NCBI GenBank assembly: GCA_016218575.1
Contig: JACRDN010000020.1
Coordinates: 1 to 64,000 of the forward strand
Direction of reading: 5' to 3'
Length of the DNA: 64,000 nt
Source: Elusimicrobiota bacterium
GTDB lineage: Bacteria > Elusimicrobiota > Elusimicrobia > UBA1565 > UBA9628
Under the pieces are notes generated by a model, which saw nothing but the letters and a program-made list of their open reading frames with translations, did not search any database and was not told the DNA's origin. Position numbers and translations under genes: made by a program. Below are positions 24,160-48,408 of this stretch, piece after piece; positions within the stretch are counted from its first letter, which is position 1; each line of letters begins with the position of its first letter.

Positions 24160-25656
24160 CTAGAACGGCATGCGGCCCGACACCTCCACTCGCCCCAGCA
24201 GGGCCTTGGCAGCGGCCTTCTGGGCCGGGCTGTTCTTCGAGAAGGCGCAAAGCCCCGCAGCCTTTAGGGTCTGGAACACGAAGGGACTGCCGAAGGAAAC
24301 CACCCGGGCCCGGGGAAAACGGCCAAGCATGGATTGAATGCGGGCGATTTCCCCGCGGCCGTAGACGATCCTTCCGGTGTAGGCCCTGGGGCCGAGGAAG
24401 GAACCGACCACCAAAACGTCCTCTGGCTCGGCCCCTTGGTCCGGCCGAACCGGGCTCACCCGGGCCCCGGCTTGCGCGAGCTCTTTCGTAAAATCCTTGC
24501 CGAGCCAGTCCTTGGGATTCTCCTCCTCGGGCTCCCAATACCTGATCTGCGCGCCGGCCGTCAGGGGCTTGGGGCCCGCCGACCAGGCCAGGCAGGCCTC
24601 AGCCATCTTCCGGGCTATCTCACAATTCTTGGGCGAGCCCACTAGACTCAACGCATCTCCGGATGAGTCTCGGGGCCGCTCCGCGGCCGCGGAGCGGCCC
24701 ACGGCATATCGCTCCCGGACCTCGACCAAGCGCCCGCAGGCCGCGGCCGCGGCCGCGGCGAGTCGGGAATCCTCCTCCACTGCTGAAAAGAGCGCGGCGA
24801 CCAGGTCTCGGGGCTTTGCCGGAACCAGGAGGATGTCGGAGCCTCCCATGAGAGCCAGGCGCGCGGCCCGCGTCTCCTCGAAATGACCGGCCACGGCCTG
24901 CATGTTCAAAGCGTCCGTACACACCAAGCCCTTAAAGCCCAGCTTCTGGCGCAAGGTCTTTTCCACGTCCGAGGAAAGGGAATAGGGCAGATCCTTGTCC
25001 TTCTCCAAGGCCGGCACGCTCAAATGTCCGGTCATCACGGAGTCCCCCTCCTCGGCTAAATTCTGGAAGGGAACGAGCTCCCGCTGGGATAGAGTCGAGC
25101 GCGGCACCTCAAGAATGGGCAGCTCCAGGTGCGAGTCCTTGATAGTCTCCCCATGGCCGGGAAAATGCTTGAGGCAGGAAAGGGCCCCGCCCGCGTGCAG
25201 GCCCTTGATGTAGGCCCGGGCTAATCTCGTGACCGTGGCCGGATCGCTCGAGAACGAGCGCGTGTTGACGATGGGATTCTTGGGCTCGGTCGCCAGGTCC
25301 ACGACCGGCGCGAAAACCCAGCGCACGCCCAAGGCCACGGACTCGGCGGCCGTGATGGCGCCCTTTTGGTAGGCCAGGCTCTCGGAGTTGGCCGCGCCCA
25401 AGCCCATGTTGGCGGAGAGGGCCGTGCCTCCGGGGCACTGAGAGGCCACGCCGTCCTCGTAATCGGCGCAGAAGAGAAGAGGCGTCCGGGCCTTGGCCTG
25501 GAGCGTTCGGGTAAAGCGCGCCACCTCGACGACCTCTCCGCCGTAAAGGCAGAAGCCTCCCACCCCCAGCTCGACCAGCTTCAGGGCCTCGTCAGGGTCG
25601 TCCAGGCCGAATTTAAAGCCTGGAAACACGAGCTCCGCAGGATTCACGGAAGCCAT
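24160..25656 (-). CDS. GH3 beta-N-acetylhexosaminidase (NagZ-like)
   Basis: A 498-residue cytoplasmic GH3 enzyme. The NagZ signature is present: CLKHFPGHGETIKDSHLELP includes the general acid/base Asp-His dyad, and GLVCTDALNMQAVAG holds the nucleophile Asp. NagZ removes GlcNAc from recycled muropeptides; murQ is encoded 7 kb away. The catalytic domain ends near residue 320. The linker after it (RSAAAERPR) is encoded by a 28-bp perfect palindrome (24673-24700). The C-terminal part resembles the second GH3 domain. An SSS transporter follows. Confidence 0.9.
   Translation of the reverse strand: MASVNPAELVFPGFKFGLDDPDEALKLVELGVGGFCLYGGEVVEVARFTRTLQAKARTPLLFCADYEDGVASQCPGGTALSANMGLGAANSESLAYQKGAITAAESVALGVRWVFAPVVDLATEPKNPIVNTRSFSSDPATVTRLARAYIKGLHAGGALSCLKHFPGHGETIKDSHLELPILEVPRSTLSQRELVPFQNLAEEGDSVMTGHLSVPALEKDKDLPYSLSSDVEKTLRQKLGFKGLVCTDALNMQAVAGHFEETRAARLALMGGSDILLVPAKPRDLVAALFSAVEEDSRLAAAAAAACGRLVEVRERYAVGRSAAAERPRDSSGDALSLVGSPKNCEIARKMAEACLAWSAGPKPLTAGAQIRYWEPEEENPKDWLGKDFTKELAQAGARVSPVRPDQGAEPEDVLVVGSFLGPRAYTGRIVYGRGEIARIQSMLGRFPRARVVSFGSPFVFQTLKAAGLCAFSKNSPAQKAAAKALLGRVEVSGRMPF
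24673..24700. repeat. 28-bp perfect palindrome inside the GH3 gene
   Basis: GGGCCGCTCCGCGG is followed at once by its exact reverse complement, with no loop. It encodes the linker GRSAAAERPR between the two domains of the GH3 enzyme. A second palindrome of 20 bp, made of GGCCGC units, lies about 50 bases further on. Confidence 0.85.
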
Positions 25657-25938
25657 TATGGCATTTTCTAGCGGCGGGTAAAGAGGTCCCGCCCCTGCGC
25701 AGGGGCGGGGCCGGTCAGTGGCAGGGAGGGCCTACCCGGGGCATGCCCCTTTGGCCCTGGTAAAAGGCAGCCTGGCGCAACATTTATATAATACATGGCT
25801 TCCATAATACCCCTGGGCTGCGGACCAGCAATCGGGTAGCGTCCGTAGTTATCCACAAAACTTTCCCAGGAAATTTTTGTGGATAACTACCGCTCCTGAT
25901 TTCTAGACCATGCGATCATTGGCGCGACGACGCGAGCT
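25657..25938. promoter_or_regulatory. divergent spacer with two palindromes
   Basis: This 282-bp spacer separates the GH3 gene (minus) and the 25939 gene (plus). It holds a 22-bp perfect palindrome (25688-25709, CCCGCCCCTGC and its complement) and the 46-bp DnaA-box palindrome at 25845-25890. An AT-rich block, ATTTATATAATACATGG, lies near 25781. No firm promoter assignment can be made. Confidence 0.55.
25845..25890. repeat. 46-bp palindrome with two inverted DnaA boxes
   Basis: The outer arms of 16 bp are perfect (25845-25860 and 25875-25890). The 14-base centre pairs too, except one mismatch and a 2-base loop. Each arm contains the exact DnaA consensus TTATCCACA (25849-25857; reverse 25886-25878). 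There is no T-run on either side. No dnaA, dnaN or AT-rich unwinding region is adjacent, so this is more likely a DnaA-binding regulatory site than a complete origin. Confidence 0.7.
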
Positions 25939-28059
25939 GTGAGAAAATACTATATCTGCGCCCTAACGGCGCTTTCATTCGGGCTGGGATATTCCTTGGC
26001 GCTTGGCCTCGAGGCGCCTCCGGCCACGCTTAACCCGGCAACCGCGGCCGTGGGCCACGCCTTCTCCGCAAGCCAAATCAAGCTCCTCGTCAAGAACCAC
26101 TACCGAATCCGAGCCGACGGCTCGATCCTCGACCCCAGTTCCCAAGCGGTCCAAGCCTCCGAGATACCCTACCTTCTTCAACGCTTGGAAAGCGCCCAGC
26201 GCCTGCGGGCCTTCCTACAGATCAAGCTCATCCTCGGAAACAGCGATGGAGAGAAGAATCTCACCCCTCTTGAGCGCGAGCAAATACGCGGCATTTTGCG
26301 CGAGAACTGGAGCGTCTTCACCTGGAGCACGCGCAAGAAATTCCGGGCCTATTTCACCTTGCAGGAGCTCGAGGAAATCAACCAGACCCCTCCCCCCATG
26401 GTGAGCGACGAACTGGCTTTGAGCGATATGAGAGACCCCGAGCCCGATCTTTCCCCGGAGCCGGAAGCGCCGGCCGAGACCCCCGGAGCGCTCGCGCAAG
26501 TTGCTCAAAAGCCCGTGCCCAACCCGAGCCTGGCCCCGCGGTGGGCGCCCCAGCCGAGGCCCTTCCTCGCCGCGCCGGCCATCGCCTCGCCTAGAATCGA
26601 GGGCTCCTCCGCGGCTGCTTCGCCCGCCGCGCCTCCGGCGTTCGCTGTTCCGGCCGCCGTTGCGGCCGGCCCTGTCGTGGCTCCGCCTCCAATCGCGCCT
26701 CAGCCGCCGGCCCCCGCGGACTTGGGAGTGCTCAAGCCCGTGCCGAGCGCCCCGGCCGTCGCCGCGGCCCCTCCGGCAGGAACGGCCGCAACGGTTGCTC
26801 CAGTAACCGCCGCCCCGACCGCGGCGGCCGGCGCATCCCAAGATCTGGTGGCCATGGCCGCGGCGGCCACGGTCCGGCCCCCGGCTGCCGCAGTTCCACC
26901 GGTACCCCCCTCGACGACTGCCGCGGCCGGGACAAGCGCCGGAACAGTCGCCCCCACCACGCCTCTTCCACCAGTCCCGGAAACATTGAAGGGCGTTTCG
27001 CACGCCGAGTTCGAGATGTTCTTGGCCGATGCGCCCTACTCCCGGGACATCAAGGCCCTGCTTCGCATGATCTCGGACAAGGCCCCGGCCTTCGCTCGGC
27101 CCCGGGCCCTGAACGCGCTCCTGGCAAGTCTCCCCCTGATCTCGATGGATTCAAATCGCGCCGGCCGGAGCCTTTACGGCAACGTCGTAGAGCAAACCGC
27201 CCCTTCCGGGGAGAAGAGCTACGTCATCGCCTTGAACCCCGGGGCGGTGATCGCCATCCGCAAAAAAATGTTCTGGGGGAAGGTCGAGAGCCTCCTTCCC
27301 GATTCTCCCGACTACCTGGCCCAGATCCACGTCTCCGACGTCAAGGTAGACGCATTGAGACGAGACGGGATGGCCGCCAAGCAGGAAATGGCGGAGTGGG
27401 GCATGTCCAAATTCTACGCGGACGACAGCCTGCGCGGGACTTTCTCCAACCAGGAGCAGGGGGGGCATCTCCTGCGCCAACTCCTCCTCTTGGAAGCCCA
27501 GAGGCAAAGCTGGGATCTCTCCCCTTACGCGGCCGAGCTCTACGCGCGCGGGGCCCAGATGATGTTCTACGCCAAGCTCCACAATGAATTGCAGGACGAC
27601 CGTTTCCTCAACCCGGATCTTAGGCTCGCCTACCACGAGTGGCTCGAGCACCCCACGGAATACCGGGACCATTTGGTCCACGCCTTGGCCTCCTCTCGCG
27701 GCGGGCGCCTGGACCCCAAGAGGACGAGCCTGGCGCAATTCGCATCCTTCGTCCAAGGCCAGAACGCCTGTGACAACGCCCAGGGCCAAGCAAGCCCCGC
27801 CGCCTTGCGCGAAGCTCTCACTTACGACACGCGAGCCTTGGTCCGCGCCCGGCTCATAGACGAGGGCCAGGCCGAGAGCGCGCGCCAGAAAATCATGGTG
27901 GACACGGCCCGGGCCGCGGAAAAAATAAAACCCTGGACCGGCCAGGAGTGCCTCAAGGAGCATGAAGAAGTCCGCGCCGGCATCCAGAGGGCCGAGGGAC
28001 TCTTGAACGAGATGCTCCTGGCCGAGCAGAAATTCAGGGAGGAGCAGGCCCATGAATAA
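25939..28059 (+). CDS. secreted orphan protein with Ala/Pro-rich middle
   Basis: A 706-residue protein starting with GTG and a signal peptide (MRKYYICALTALSFGLGYSLA). Residues about 35-165 look folded and helical, about 165-350 are a low-complexity Ala/Pro/Val linker, and 350-706 are folded, with charged helical segments (EMFLADAPYSRDIKALLRMI; AGIQRAEGLLNEMLLAEQKF). I recognise no domain. It overlaps the next gene by 8 bases, so the two exported proteins are probably made together. Confidence 0.7.
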   Translation: MRKYYICALTALSFGLGYSLALGLEAPPATLNPATAAVGHAFSASQIKLLVKNHYRIRADGSILDPSSQAVQASEIPYLLQRLESAQRLRAFLQIKLILGNSDGEKNLTPLEREQIRGILRENWSVFTWSTRKKFRAYFTLQELEEINQTPPPMVSDELALSDMRDPEPDLSPEPEAPAETPGALAQVAQKPVPNPSLAPRWAPQPRPFLAAPAIASPRIEGSSAAASPAAPPAFAVPAAVAAGPVVAPPPIAPQPPAPADLGVLKPVPSAPAVAAAPPAGTAATVAPVTAAPTAAAGASQDLVAMAAAATVRPPAAAVPPVPPSTTAAAGTSAGTVAPTTPLPPVPETLKGVSHAEFEMFLADAPYSRDIKALLRMISDKAPAFARPRALNALLASLPLISMDSNRAGRSLYGNVVEQTAPSGEKSYVIALNPGAVIAIRKKMFWGKVESLLPDSPDYLAQIHVSDVKVDALRRDGMAAKQEMAEWGMSKFYADDSLRGTFSNQEQGGHLLRQLLLLEAQRQSWDLSPYAAELYARGAQMMFYAKLHNELQDDRFLNPDLRLAYHEWLEHPTEYRDHLVHALASSRGGRLDPKRTSLAQFASFVQGQNACDNAQGQASPAALREALTYDTRALVRARLIDEGQAESARQKIMVDTARAAEKIKPWTGQECLKEHEEVRAGIQRAEGLLNEMLLAEQKFREEQAHE

Positions 28060-46727: not shown

Positions 46728-48260
46728 CTAGGCCTCGGACTTATCCACCGAACTTCGCGGCGAAGTCCTGTGGACAACTTCCAAACAGGCGTCGAGCCGG
46801 GAAGCCAGCTCCCGGGCCGCGTTCCTGTCCTTGAGGCCGGAGAGGTTGATGCGGACATTCTCGGCAGCGCAAAGTACCGCGGCCTTCAAGAGGTGCAAAG
46901 CGCAATTCATGTCGGAAGCCACCGCCGCGCCGGTCAAAGGAAGAGCCTTCTCCACCACGGAGAAGGCCTGATGGGCCTTCTCCGTGGTCGCTAGAGGCAC
47001 CTCGGCGGCGTGGAGGAGGGCCGCCTGCATCTTGATGACCCTCTCCGAGCTGTCTTTGGGAAGGCCGACCGCAGCCATGAACTGGTCGAAGGCGGCCGCG
47101 TCCTCGGTGGTAAGGCGGTGGAAATCATCCTTGAAGACATTCAAGGATTGAGAGGATCTCTCCAGCTCAGGCCGAAATTCCGGCCTGAGCTTCTTGGACT
47201 TCAGACTAATCCCGATCGCCATCATCCCGAGGCCGCAGCCCATGGCCCCGGAGATGCCCGCGGCCGAGCCCCCGCCTGGGGTGGCGTCGGTGTTGGAGAG
47301 GGCCTGGGCCACGAGCTCGGCGGCCTCCTGCCAGCTTGAAGAAGCGCTAGGAGCTGCGACGGCCGCGAGCCTTCTTTCCAGGATCTGGACCTCGGGATTG
47401 AAATTCTCGAGGCTCAATGAATCCACGGCGAAGCCGATCAAGGCCTCCTGCGGGAGAAGCCCCACGATCTCGGCGGTCAGTATCTTGGCCCCGTGCTCCG
47501 CGGAGAGCCGCGAAACCTCGGAGAGGACCTTGGCCATGGGCGTGGTCTTGTAGTCAGTGAGCACGGTAGAGATCTGGACCTGTTTGCGCGCGGAAAGCTC
47601 TATCTCCTTGGCCCTGACGCAGGGCAACCCCCCTCCCGAGGCCCGGACCCGCTTGGCTATGTCCTTGCCCGCGGCCATGTCCGAGGTGGAGAGGTTCAGG
47701 TTGAAGTTGATGATTTGCCGCCTAGCGCCCACGGCCACGGCCCCGGCCATGGGATGGATGCGGTTGGGGCCGAAGTCCGGGGTCCGGGAAAGATCCTTGC
47801 CGATGAGATCCCTCAAGCCCTCGAACTGCCCCTTGCGCACGTTGGCCAAATCCTTGCGCTCCGGAATGCGTGCCGCCTGGTCGTAGAGGTAGGCCGGGAG
47901 CCCAAGCTCCCGGCCTATGCGCTCGGCAAGGCGCGCCGCCAAGGCCGCGCAGTCCTCCATGGAGACCCCGGAAACCGGAATGAAGGGAATCACGTCCACC
48001 GCCCCCATGCGGGGGTGCTCGCCTTTGTGCTTGTTTAAATCAATGAGCTCGACCGCCTTCTTGGCGACCGCGAAGCACGCCTCCAAGGCGACCTCGGGGG
48101 AGGCCACGAAGGACAGCACGCAGCGGTTGTGGTCCGGGTCGGTCTCCACGTCCAAGATGCTGACCCCGGAGACGGCCCGGGCGGCATCCACCACCTGGGC
48201 GACCTTGGCCGCATCCCGGCCCTCCGAGAAATTCGGCACGCATTCGACTAAAGCGCTCAT
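46728..48260 (-). CDS. ftcD: glutamate formimidoyltransferase / formimidoyl-THF cyclodeaminase fusion
   Basis: A 510-residue bifunctional enzyme closing the histidine pathway. The N-terminal formiminotransferase (MSALVECVPNFSEGRD..., NKHKGEHPRMGAVDVIPFIPV) moves the formimino group from formiminoglutamate to THF. The C-terminal cyclodeaminase (residues about 330-510; TPGGGSAAGISGAMGCGLGMMAI) makes 5,10-methenyl-THF and ammonia. ATG 48260 is chosen because the family starts there; the longer frame upstream is not conserved. It is 3 kb from hutI. Two palindromes lie within it. Confidence 0.94.
   Translation of the reverse strand: MSALVECVPNFSEGRDAAKVAQVVDAARAVSGVSILDVETDPDHNRCVLSFVASPEVALEACFAVAKKAVELIDLNKHKGEHPRMGAVDVIPFIPVSGVSMEDCAALAARLAERIGRELGLPAYLYDQAARIPERKDLANVRKGQFEGLRDLIGKDLSRTPDFGPNRIHPMAGAVAVGARRQIINFNLNLSTSDMAAGKDIAKRVRASGGGLPCVRAKEIELSARKQVQISTVLTDYKTTPMAKVLSEVSRLSAEHGAKILTAEIVGLLPQEALIGFAVDSLSLENFNPEVQILERRLAAVAAPSASSSWQEAAELVAQALSNTDATPGGGSAAGISGAMGCGLGMMAIGISLKSKKLRPEFRPELERSSQSLNVFKDDFHRLTTEDAAAFDQFMAAVGLPKDSSERVIKMQAALLHAAEVPLATTEKAHQAFSVVEKALPLTGAAVASDMNCALHLLKAAVLCAAENVRINLSGLKDRNAARELASRLDACLEVVHRTSPRSSVDKSEA
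47164..47191. repeat. 28-bp near-perfect palindrome inside ftcD (1)
   Basis: AGCTCAGGCCG and its complement form 11-bp arms; the 6-base centre pairs except for one mismatch. It encodes KLRPEFRPEL in the cyclodeaminase part. Confidence 0.65.
47890..47917. repeat. 28-bp palindrome inside ftcD (2)
   Basis: Perfect 12-base arms TAGGCCGGGAGC and GCTCCCGGCCTA with loop CCAA. It encodes GRELGLPAYLY, a conserved segment of the formiminotransferase, so it did not add residues. Confidence 0.7.
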
Positions 48261-48408
48261 ATTTAAGCTCCTCAAGTGTATTTTGCCATTCTTGCCCGCC
48301 ATAGTTCCACTTGGGCCTAGGCCCAAAGACCTCGATTTTTTCTCCTAAAGGCCCATGAGCCCGGTTCGTAAATTTTTTATTTTCAAATGAAACATTTCTG
48401 GAGGACAT

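Follow-up and report, generated by a model that had tools for sequence, protein, structure and literature searches.

A dispersed family of REP-like palindromes with DnaA-box-like ends, and a candidate protein partner, in Elusimicrobiota

Why should the spacer between two divergent genes hold a near-perfect palindrome with two facing DnaA boxes? The 46-bp palindrome lies at positions 25845-25890 of the 64,000-nucleotide stretch of Elusimicrobiota DNA that we analysed (the window), and an earlier note had read it as a possible origin of replication or DnaA regulatory site. Its sequence is GTAGTTATCCACAAAACTTTCC-CA-GGAAATTTTTGTGGATAACTAC, in which two arms of 22 nt each (25845-25866 and 25869-25890) are 95% complementary across a 2-nt gap. 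Each arm contains an exact match to TTATCCACA, at 25849-25857 on the plus strand and at 25878-25886 on the minus strand, and these face-to-face half-sites are the only exact matches in the window. The divergent neighbours, given here as context only, are a glycoside hydrolase family 3 (NagZ-type) gene on the minus strand (24160-25656), 190 bp from the element, and a 706-aa ORF on the plus strand (25939-28059), whose start codon lies 50 bp from the element and which had no Pfam match. In all of this the earlier description holds, as it does in calling the palindrome unlikely by chance: shuffles of the window gave two or more TTATCCACA matches in 2 of 100 cases (mean 0.17), and the palindrome folds as single-stranded DNA at -16.2 kcal/mol (z = -8.1), a stability equalled by 0 of 200 shuffles. 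Together, the box shuffles and the folding z-score make a palindrome by mere chance very unlikely, and we rejected that reading. The same spacer contains a second palindrome, also seen earlier, which we place at 25685-25712. It is 28 bp long and GC-rich, with 14-nt arms that are 93% complementary; it is unrelated to the repeat family described below, and its core is present once in the sequence examined from its own genome.

A dispersed family of palindromic repeats

Is this palindrome a singular site? A first pass with a strict pattern found 10 copies in the window's genome, and a covariance model built from an alignment of 29 copies gave 142 strand matches, corresponding to 71 places, down to E 7e-4. 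Since the search scored 150 candidates, the figure of 71 is a minimum. The 2.82 Mb genome thus holds at least 71 sites of a 41-42 bp element, and the palindrome at 25845-25890 is almost certainly one copy of this dispersed family. The repeat element proper spans 42 bp (AGTTATCCAC...GTGGATAACT; 25847-25888; 63.6 bits, E 2.1e-13), and a second copy in the window lies at 46739-46779 (46.0 bits, E 1.8e-8); neither palindrome is assigned to a strand.

Sixty of the 63 exact TTATCCACA occurrences in the assembly (~95%) are inside repeat copies, and across the genome the box occurs nearly always as facing pairs. That a genome should hold many similar palindromes is what the earlier note itself had named as counting against its proposal, and the reading as a unique origin or regulatory site finds no support. 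What stands of it is the exact DnaA-box match, which makes DnaA binding plausible. An origin of replication is ruled out by the 71 dispersed copies, and with just two boxes in the window the element does not match a unique oriC or DnaA control locus with its cluster of boxes. The loci oriC, datA and DARS carry DnaA boxes of the TTATCCACA type. However, each of them is a single locus where several boxes stand in a fixed arrangement (PMC4585315), whereas the element described here has 71 copies, each with one symmetrical box pair around a self-complementary interior.

The element consensus is roughly A(G/C)TTATCCAC(A/C)(A/G)AACTTCSC followed by its reverse complement, 41-42 bp in all. Its borders are sharp, with no conservation outside (flank information ≤0.26 bits). 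The GTAG and CGTC tags are absent as a feature of the element ends (of 142 flanks, 1 has GTAG and 8 have CGTC), which rules out a tagged REP. The flanks show no conserved T run, and 2-9 nt direct repeats of the kind left by target-site duplication are in no excess over chance. The Rfam matches (microRNA, thermometer) were weak, falling far short of the gathering score.

A larger MITE-like branched hairpin element, with ends near AGTGCTC[CT], occurs at loci L320 (~1923-2163), L317 (~1923-2083), L310 (~1960-2080) and L362 (~500-830). Three copies or derivatives of it (L320, L317 and L310) contain the palindrome in their middle. The homologous spot in L362 lacks the palindrome but holds another hairpin, which disqualifies it as a clean empty site, and no clean one was found.

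Placement and descent of the copies

Where do the copies lie? We scored their placement with a codon-usage gene finder that was checked on the window. Although the genome is ~93% coding in the window, 58 of the 71 copies are intergenic or at a contig edge; each of the remaining 13 overlaps a predicted ORF, in many cases at one of its ends. A gene 3' end lies within 25 bp of 34 of the 71 copies, compared with 13 of 71 for a gene 5' end. Convergent gaps hold 17 copies, several of which occupy the entire gap (a weak excess, Fisher p 0.045), and divergent gaps hold 11, including 25845-25890. There was no clear sign of clustering by contig (chi-square p 0.09). The second window copy falls within the last codons of an FTCD-type gene on the minus strand (46728-48302) and supplies its C-terminal codons; homology of this gene to solved FTCDs stops at residue 507, at about the start of the element-encoded C-terminus.

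How did the copies arise? The two arms are more alike within a copy than between copies, both in the inner part (0.79 versus 0.66; 0 of 2000 permutations) and in the outer part (likewise 0 of 2000 permutations), and two-sided (paired) changes fill 35 cells compared with 20 in column shuffles. Quasi-palindrome correction by template switching can also make the arms of one copy alike, and therefore this likeness is no proof of a hairpin function in RNA or DNA. Identical copies occur, in different contexts. Related genera of the order keep the outer motif (A)GTTATCC[A/C]C, with interiors that differ yet stay self-complementary (for example, TTATCCACAAACATACGGTACCGTATGTTTGTGGATAA in genome G009 and GTTATCCCCCGATCCGTCGCGCGACGGATCGGGGGATAAC in G226); the final box bases are replaced there (GTTATCCCC...) and the palindrome is retained. 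In G225, copies at ~15 loci have the same imperfect interior, GAATTATGCCGGCATAAAACGG, and most share its interior mismatches. Shared mismatches of this kind point to an element that spreads by copying within the genome, and away from binding sites that arose one by one.

Most relatives that encode DnaA have no such palindromes. Outside the order, facing DnaA boxes enclose ordinary, non-palindromic interiors, and mean inner self-complementarity is 0.34-0.38 elsewhere versus 0.80 in this family. Broad scans of genomes and viruses with a looser pattern returned, among the matches listed, for the most part ordinary pairs of DnaA boxes whose interiors are not palindromic. In one family of the same class, single matches resemble DnaA-box clusters of the usual origin type.

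A Y1 protein with a DnaA-like domain

What protein could read such an element? In the window's own genome, G000, the sole Bac_DnaA_C match, a weak one, is in the same ORF as a Y1_Tnp domain; this ORF, at C19:242709-243623, encodes a 305-aa protein. A profile of 30 aligned orthologs of this Y1-DnaA_C protein has DnaA as its sole convincing PDB match (E 1.1e-4), and comparison with local DnaA domain IV by hhalign gave a probability of 90 and E 1.4e-6. The AlphaFold model has a Y1 core, and its best PDB match is 4er8, a REP transposase bound to a REP hairpin; the NCBIfam model REP_Tyr_transpos scores 72.5 bits against a cut-off of 80. This architecture, a Y1 core with a Bac_DnaA_C-like C-terminal domain, is that of TnpAREP subclass 2.1.2. 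However, the orthologs do not keep the HUH motif and catalytic tyrosine of that subclass intact: the first histidine is absent in 30 of 30 aligned orthologs, the second in 18 and the tyrosine in 10. Since HUH is lost in all 30 and the tyrosine in a third, the present orthologs are probably catalytically inactive and unlikely to move anything now. The DHTT region of DnaA domain IV is replaced by TPSA in the Y1-DnaA_C protein; residues of this region in E. coli DnaA contact the box. We found no synteny of the gene among the loci compared, and vertical domestication gained no support from the correlation of ortholog distances with DnaA distances (Mantel r 0.07, p 0.30, 11 genomes).

Do the palindromes and the protein occur together? 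Orthologs are present in 32 of the 56 genomes of the order. With presence of the palindrome defined as a match to either search pattern, 15 of the 32 genomes with an ortholog have palindromes versus 2 of the 24 without (Fisher p 0.0017, a statistic that ignores relatedness), a provisional comparison in that its positive side includes G011, G027 and G010, which are counted by pattern alone. Counting the pattern-only genomes G013 and G025 as well gives 4 of 24 without an ortholog (p 0.017). The other 17 ortholog-bearing genomes have no such palindrome, and in G226 (91% complete) and G228 (72%) palindromes are present with the ortholog undetected. In G016, the ortholog gene is flanked by two palindrome copies, one on each side, in a REPtron-like arrangement; in the other genomes tested, G000 included, no copy lies within ~1.5 kb of the ortholog gene.

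G000 also encodes a Y1 transposase of the TIRYT type with intact HUH and tyrosine (C23:71782; L180 947-2348). Its 41-nt terminal inverted repeats (GGGTGCCAGTCATTTACATTC...) are unrelated to GTTATCC, and we rejected it as a mobiliser of the palindromes.

Competing readings and known systems

Which reading best accounts for the family? The family itself, its sharp boundaries, its extragenic bias, the self-complementarity within copies and the turnover of interiors from genus to genus are observed. The mechanism with most support, if still a tentative one, is that a DnaA-domain protein recognises the palindromes or once did so. The hairpins would have spread by copying within the genome and been tolerated chiefly where they lie between genes, close to gene 3' ends. 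Their outer half-sites would be what a protein recognises, the likeliest candidate being the REP-transposase-like Y1 protein with its C-terminal relative of DnaA domain IV. An ancestor of this protein probably moved the hairpins in single-stranded form, and today's orthologs, though catalytically degenerate, probably continue to bind the palindrome as DNA-binding proteins. A fold common to the two binding domains would then explain the DnaA-box spelling, and host DnaA might bind the sites incidentally. To the whole model, a REP-like hairpin family recognised by a Y1 protein of the DnaA-domain-IV type whose ancestor mobilised the hairpins, we give about an even chance. We think it unlikely, although worth stating, that the DnaA box is the recognition sequence of the repeat and is read by a catalytically dead, transposase-derived DnaA-domain protein, such that a selfish or domesticated repeat system and the initiator share sites across the chromosome and may compete for them; if so, repeat copy number would be tied to initiation control.

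Could the palindromes instead be genuine DnaA-binding sites, kept by selection either as regulatory boxes or as a scattered system for titration or timing? Host DnaA binding to many of the copies is plausible and could occur, because the box match is exact and because, among boxes near dnaA in the order and class, TTATCCACA occurs most often (35 of 70). The concentration of exact boxes inside the repeats (60 of 63) favors such sites, as does the usual DHTT/DHST motif kept in DnaA domain IV of the relatives. The relaxed consensus TTWTNCACA fits 70 of the family's 142 half-sites, but this leaves half of them outside it. Moreover, related genera change the last box bases, replacing the CACA end (GTTATCCCC), and the palindrome stays; the strict DnaA box is therefore not a conserved feature. 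With half-sites and box ends so variable, DnaA binding is unlikely to be what the family conserves. The self-complementary interior is conserved as well, the element appears to spread by copying, most DnaA-bearing relatives are without palindromes, copies do not clearly cluster by contig, and box pairs elsewhere are found without palindromic interiors. We consider selected DnaA sites rather improbable. A canonical DnaA was not found in G000, which is rated 97% complete; since nearly all relatives have one, the missing dnaA is probably an assembly gap.

A role of the copies as RNA hairpins, transcribed at gene ends and maintained as bidirectional terminators or mRNA 3' stabilisers, would fit the 3'-end bias, the 17 copies in convergent gaps, the stable hairpin and the excess of paired changes over shuffled columns. 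However, no gene ends in the divergent gaps that hold 11 copies, that of 25845-25890 among them. No T run follows the hairpin, the window copy at 25845-25890 was not called terminator-like, and RNA structure leaves the fixed outer 8-10 bp across genera unexplained; this reading also strikes us as rather improbable. Both DnaA titration and RNA-level roles are rivals to protein recognition that may coexist with it. A MITE with GTTATCC termini, recognised and mobilised by a DDE transposase, would have the inverted terminal sequence, many copies and sharp borders seen here. We nevertheless judge it quite improbable: target-site duplications (2-9 nt) are not above chance, the whole ~41-bp element is palindromic with an interior that turns over yet stays self-complementary, and a non-systematic look saw no full element with such ends. 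Operator sites of a transcription regulator, with a coincidental resemblance to DnaA boxes, would account for the dyad symmetry and for the position of 25845-25890, 50 bp upstream of a start codon, but are highly improbable given the common 3'-end and convergent placements, the identical copies in different contexts and the copied mismatches. An attC-like site was considered and set aside on the wrong polarity of the conserved ends.

Returning to recognition by the DnaA-domain protein, how does the family compare with known systems? It is an untagged, REP-like family and a candidate partner for REP-transposases with a DnaA-like domain. Like REP/REPIN sequences with their RAYT/TnpAREP proteins (PMC3733652, PMC8266576, PMC3116915), the copies are short hairpins, present in tens, extragenic and leaning toward gene 3' ends; they are homogeneous within a genome and turn over between species, a Y1 REP-transposase-like gene co-occurs, and there is one REPtron-like arrangement, in G016. 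Unlike REPs, which are tagged at one end, they have no GTAG/CGTC tag and are fully symmetrical over 41-42 bp, their conserved part is the stem base GTTATCC[A/C]C, and the associated protein has no intact HUH. Untagged palindromic repeats that resemble REP hairpins occur in Mycobacterium, Deinococcus, Bordetella and Brucella (PMC3733652); their protein partner is unnamed there, whereas a candidate partner is at hand here.

The candidate protein resembles TnpAREP subclass 2.1 (2.1.2) and TIRYT proteins (PMC6006769, PMC3733652) in combining a Y1 core with a DnaA-C-like helix-turn-helix domain. Quentin et al. 2018 (PMC6006769) assigned the Y1 plus DnaA-C architecture to TnpAREP subclass 2.1.2 and, searching both automatically and by hand, detected no REP-like sequences in the vicinity of these genes. 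The terminal repeats of such genes, GGGG[AT][CG]A[CG], are unlike DnaA boxes, and the authors therefore doubted a role of the DnaA-like domain in target recognition (PMC6006769). Here, in contrast, DnaA-box-like palindromes co-occur with the gene and flank it in one genome, and the catalytic motif is degenerate. The family is thus a concrete candidate for the DNA partner that went unfound in that survey, and it bears on both points, the absent REPs and the doubted target recognition by the domain. No earlier report of this repeat family was found in the literature searched. Should host DnaA bind as well, the presence of ~95% of the assembly's perfect TTATCCACA boxes in one repeat family would be relevant to possible interference between repeats and replication control. 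A perfect palindrome of 54 bp, different in sequence from the family (L232 2377-2430), adjoins the Y1-DnaA_C ortholog of G009.
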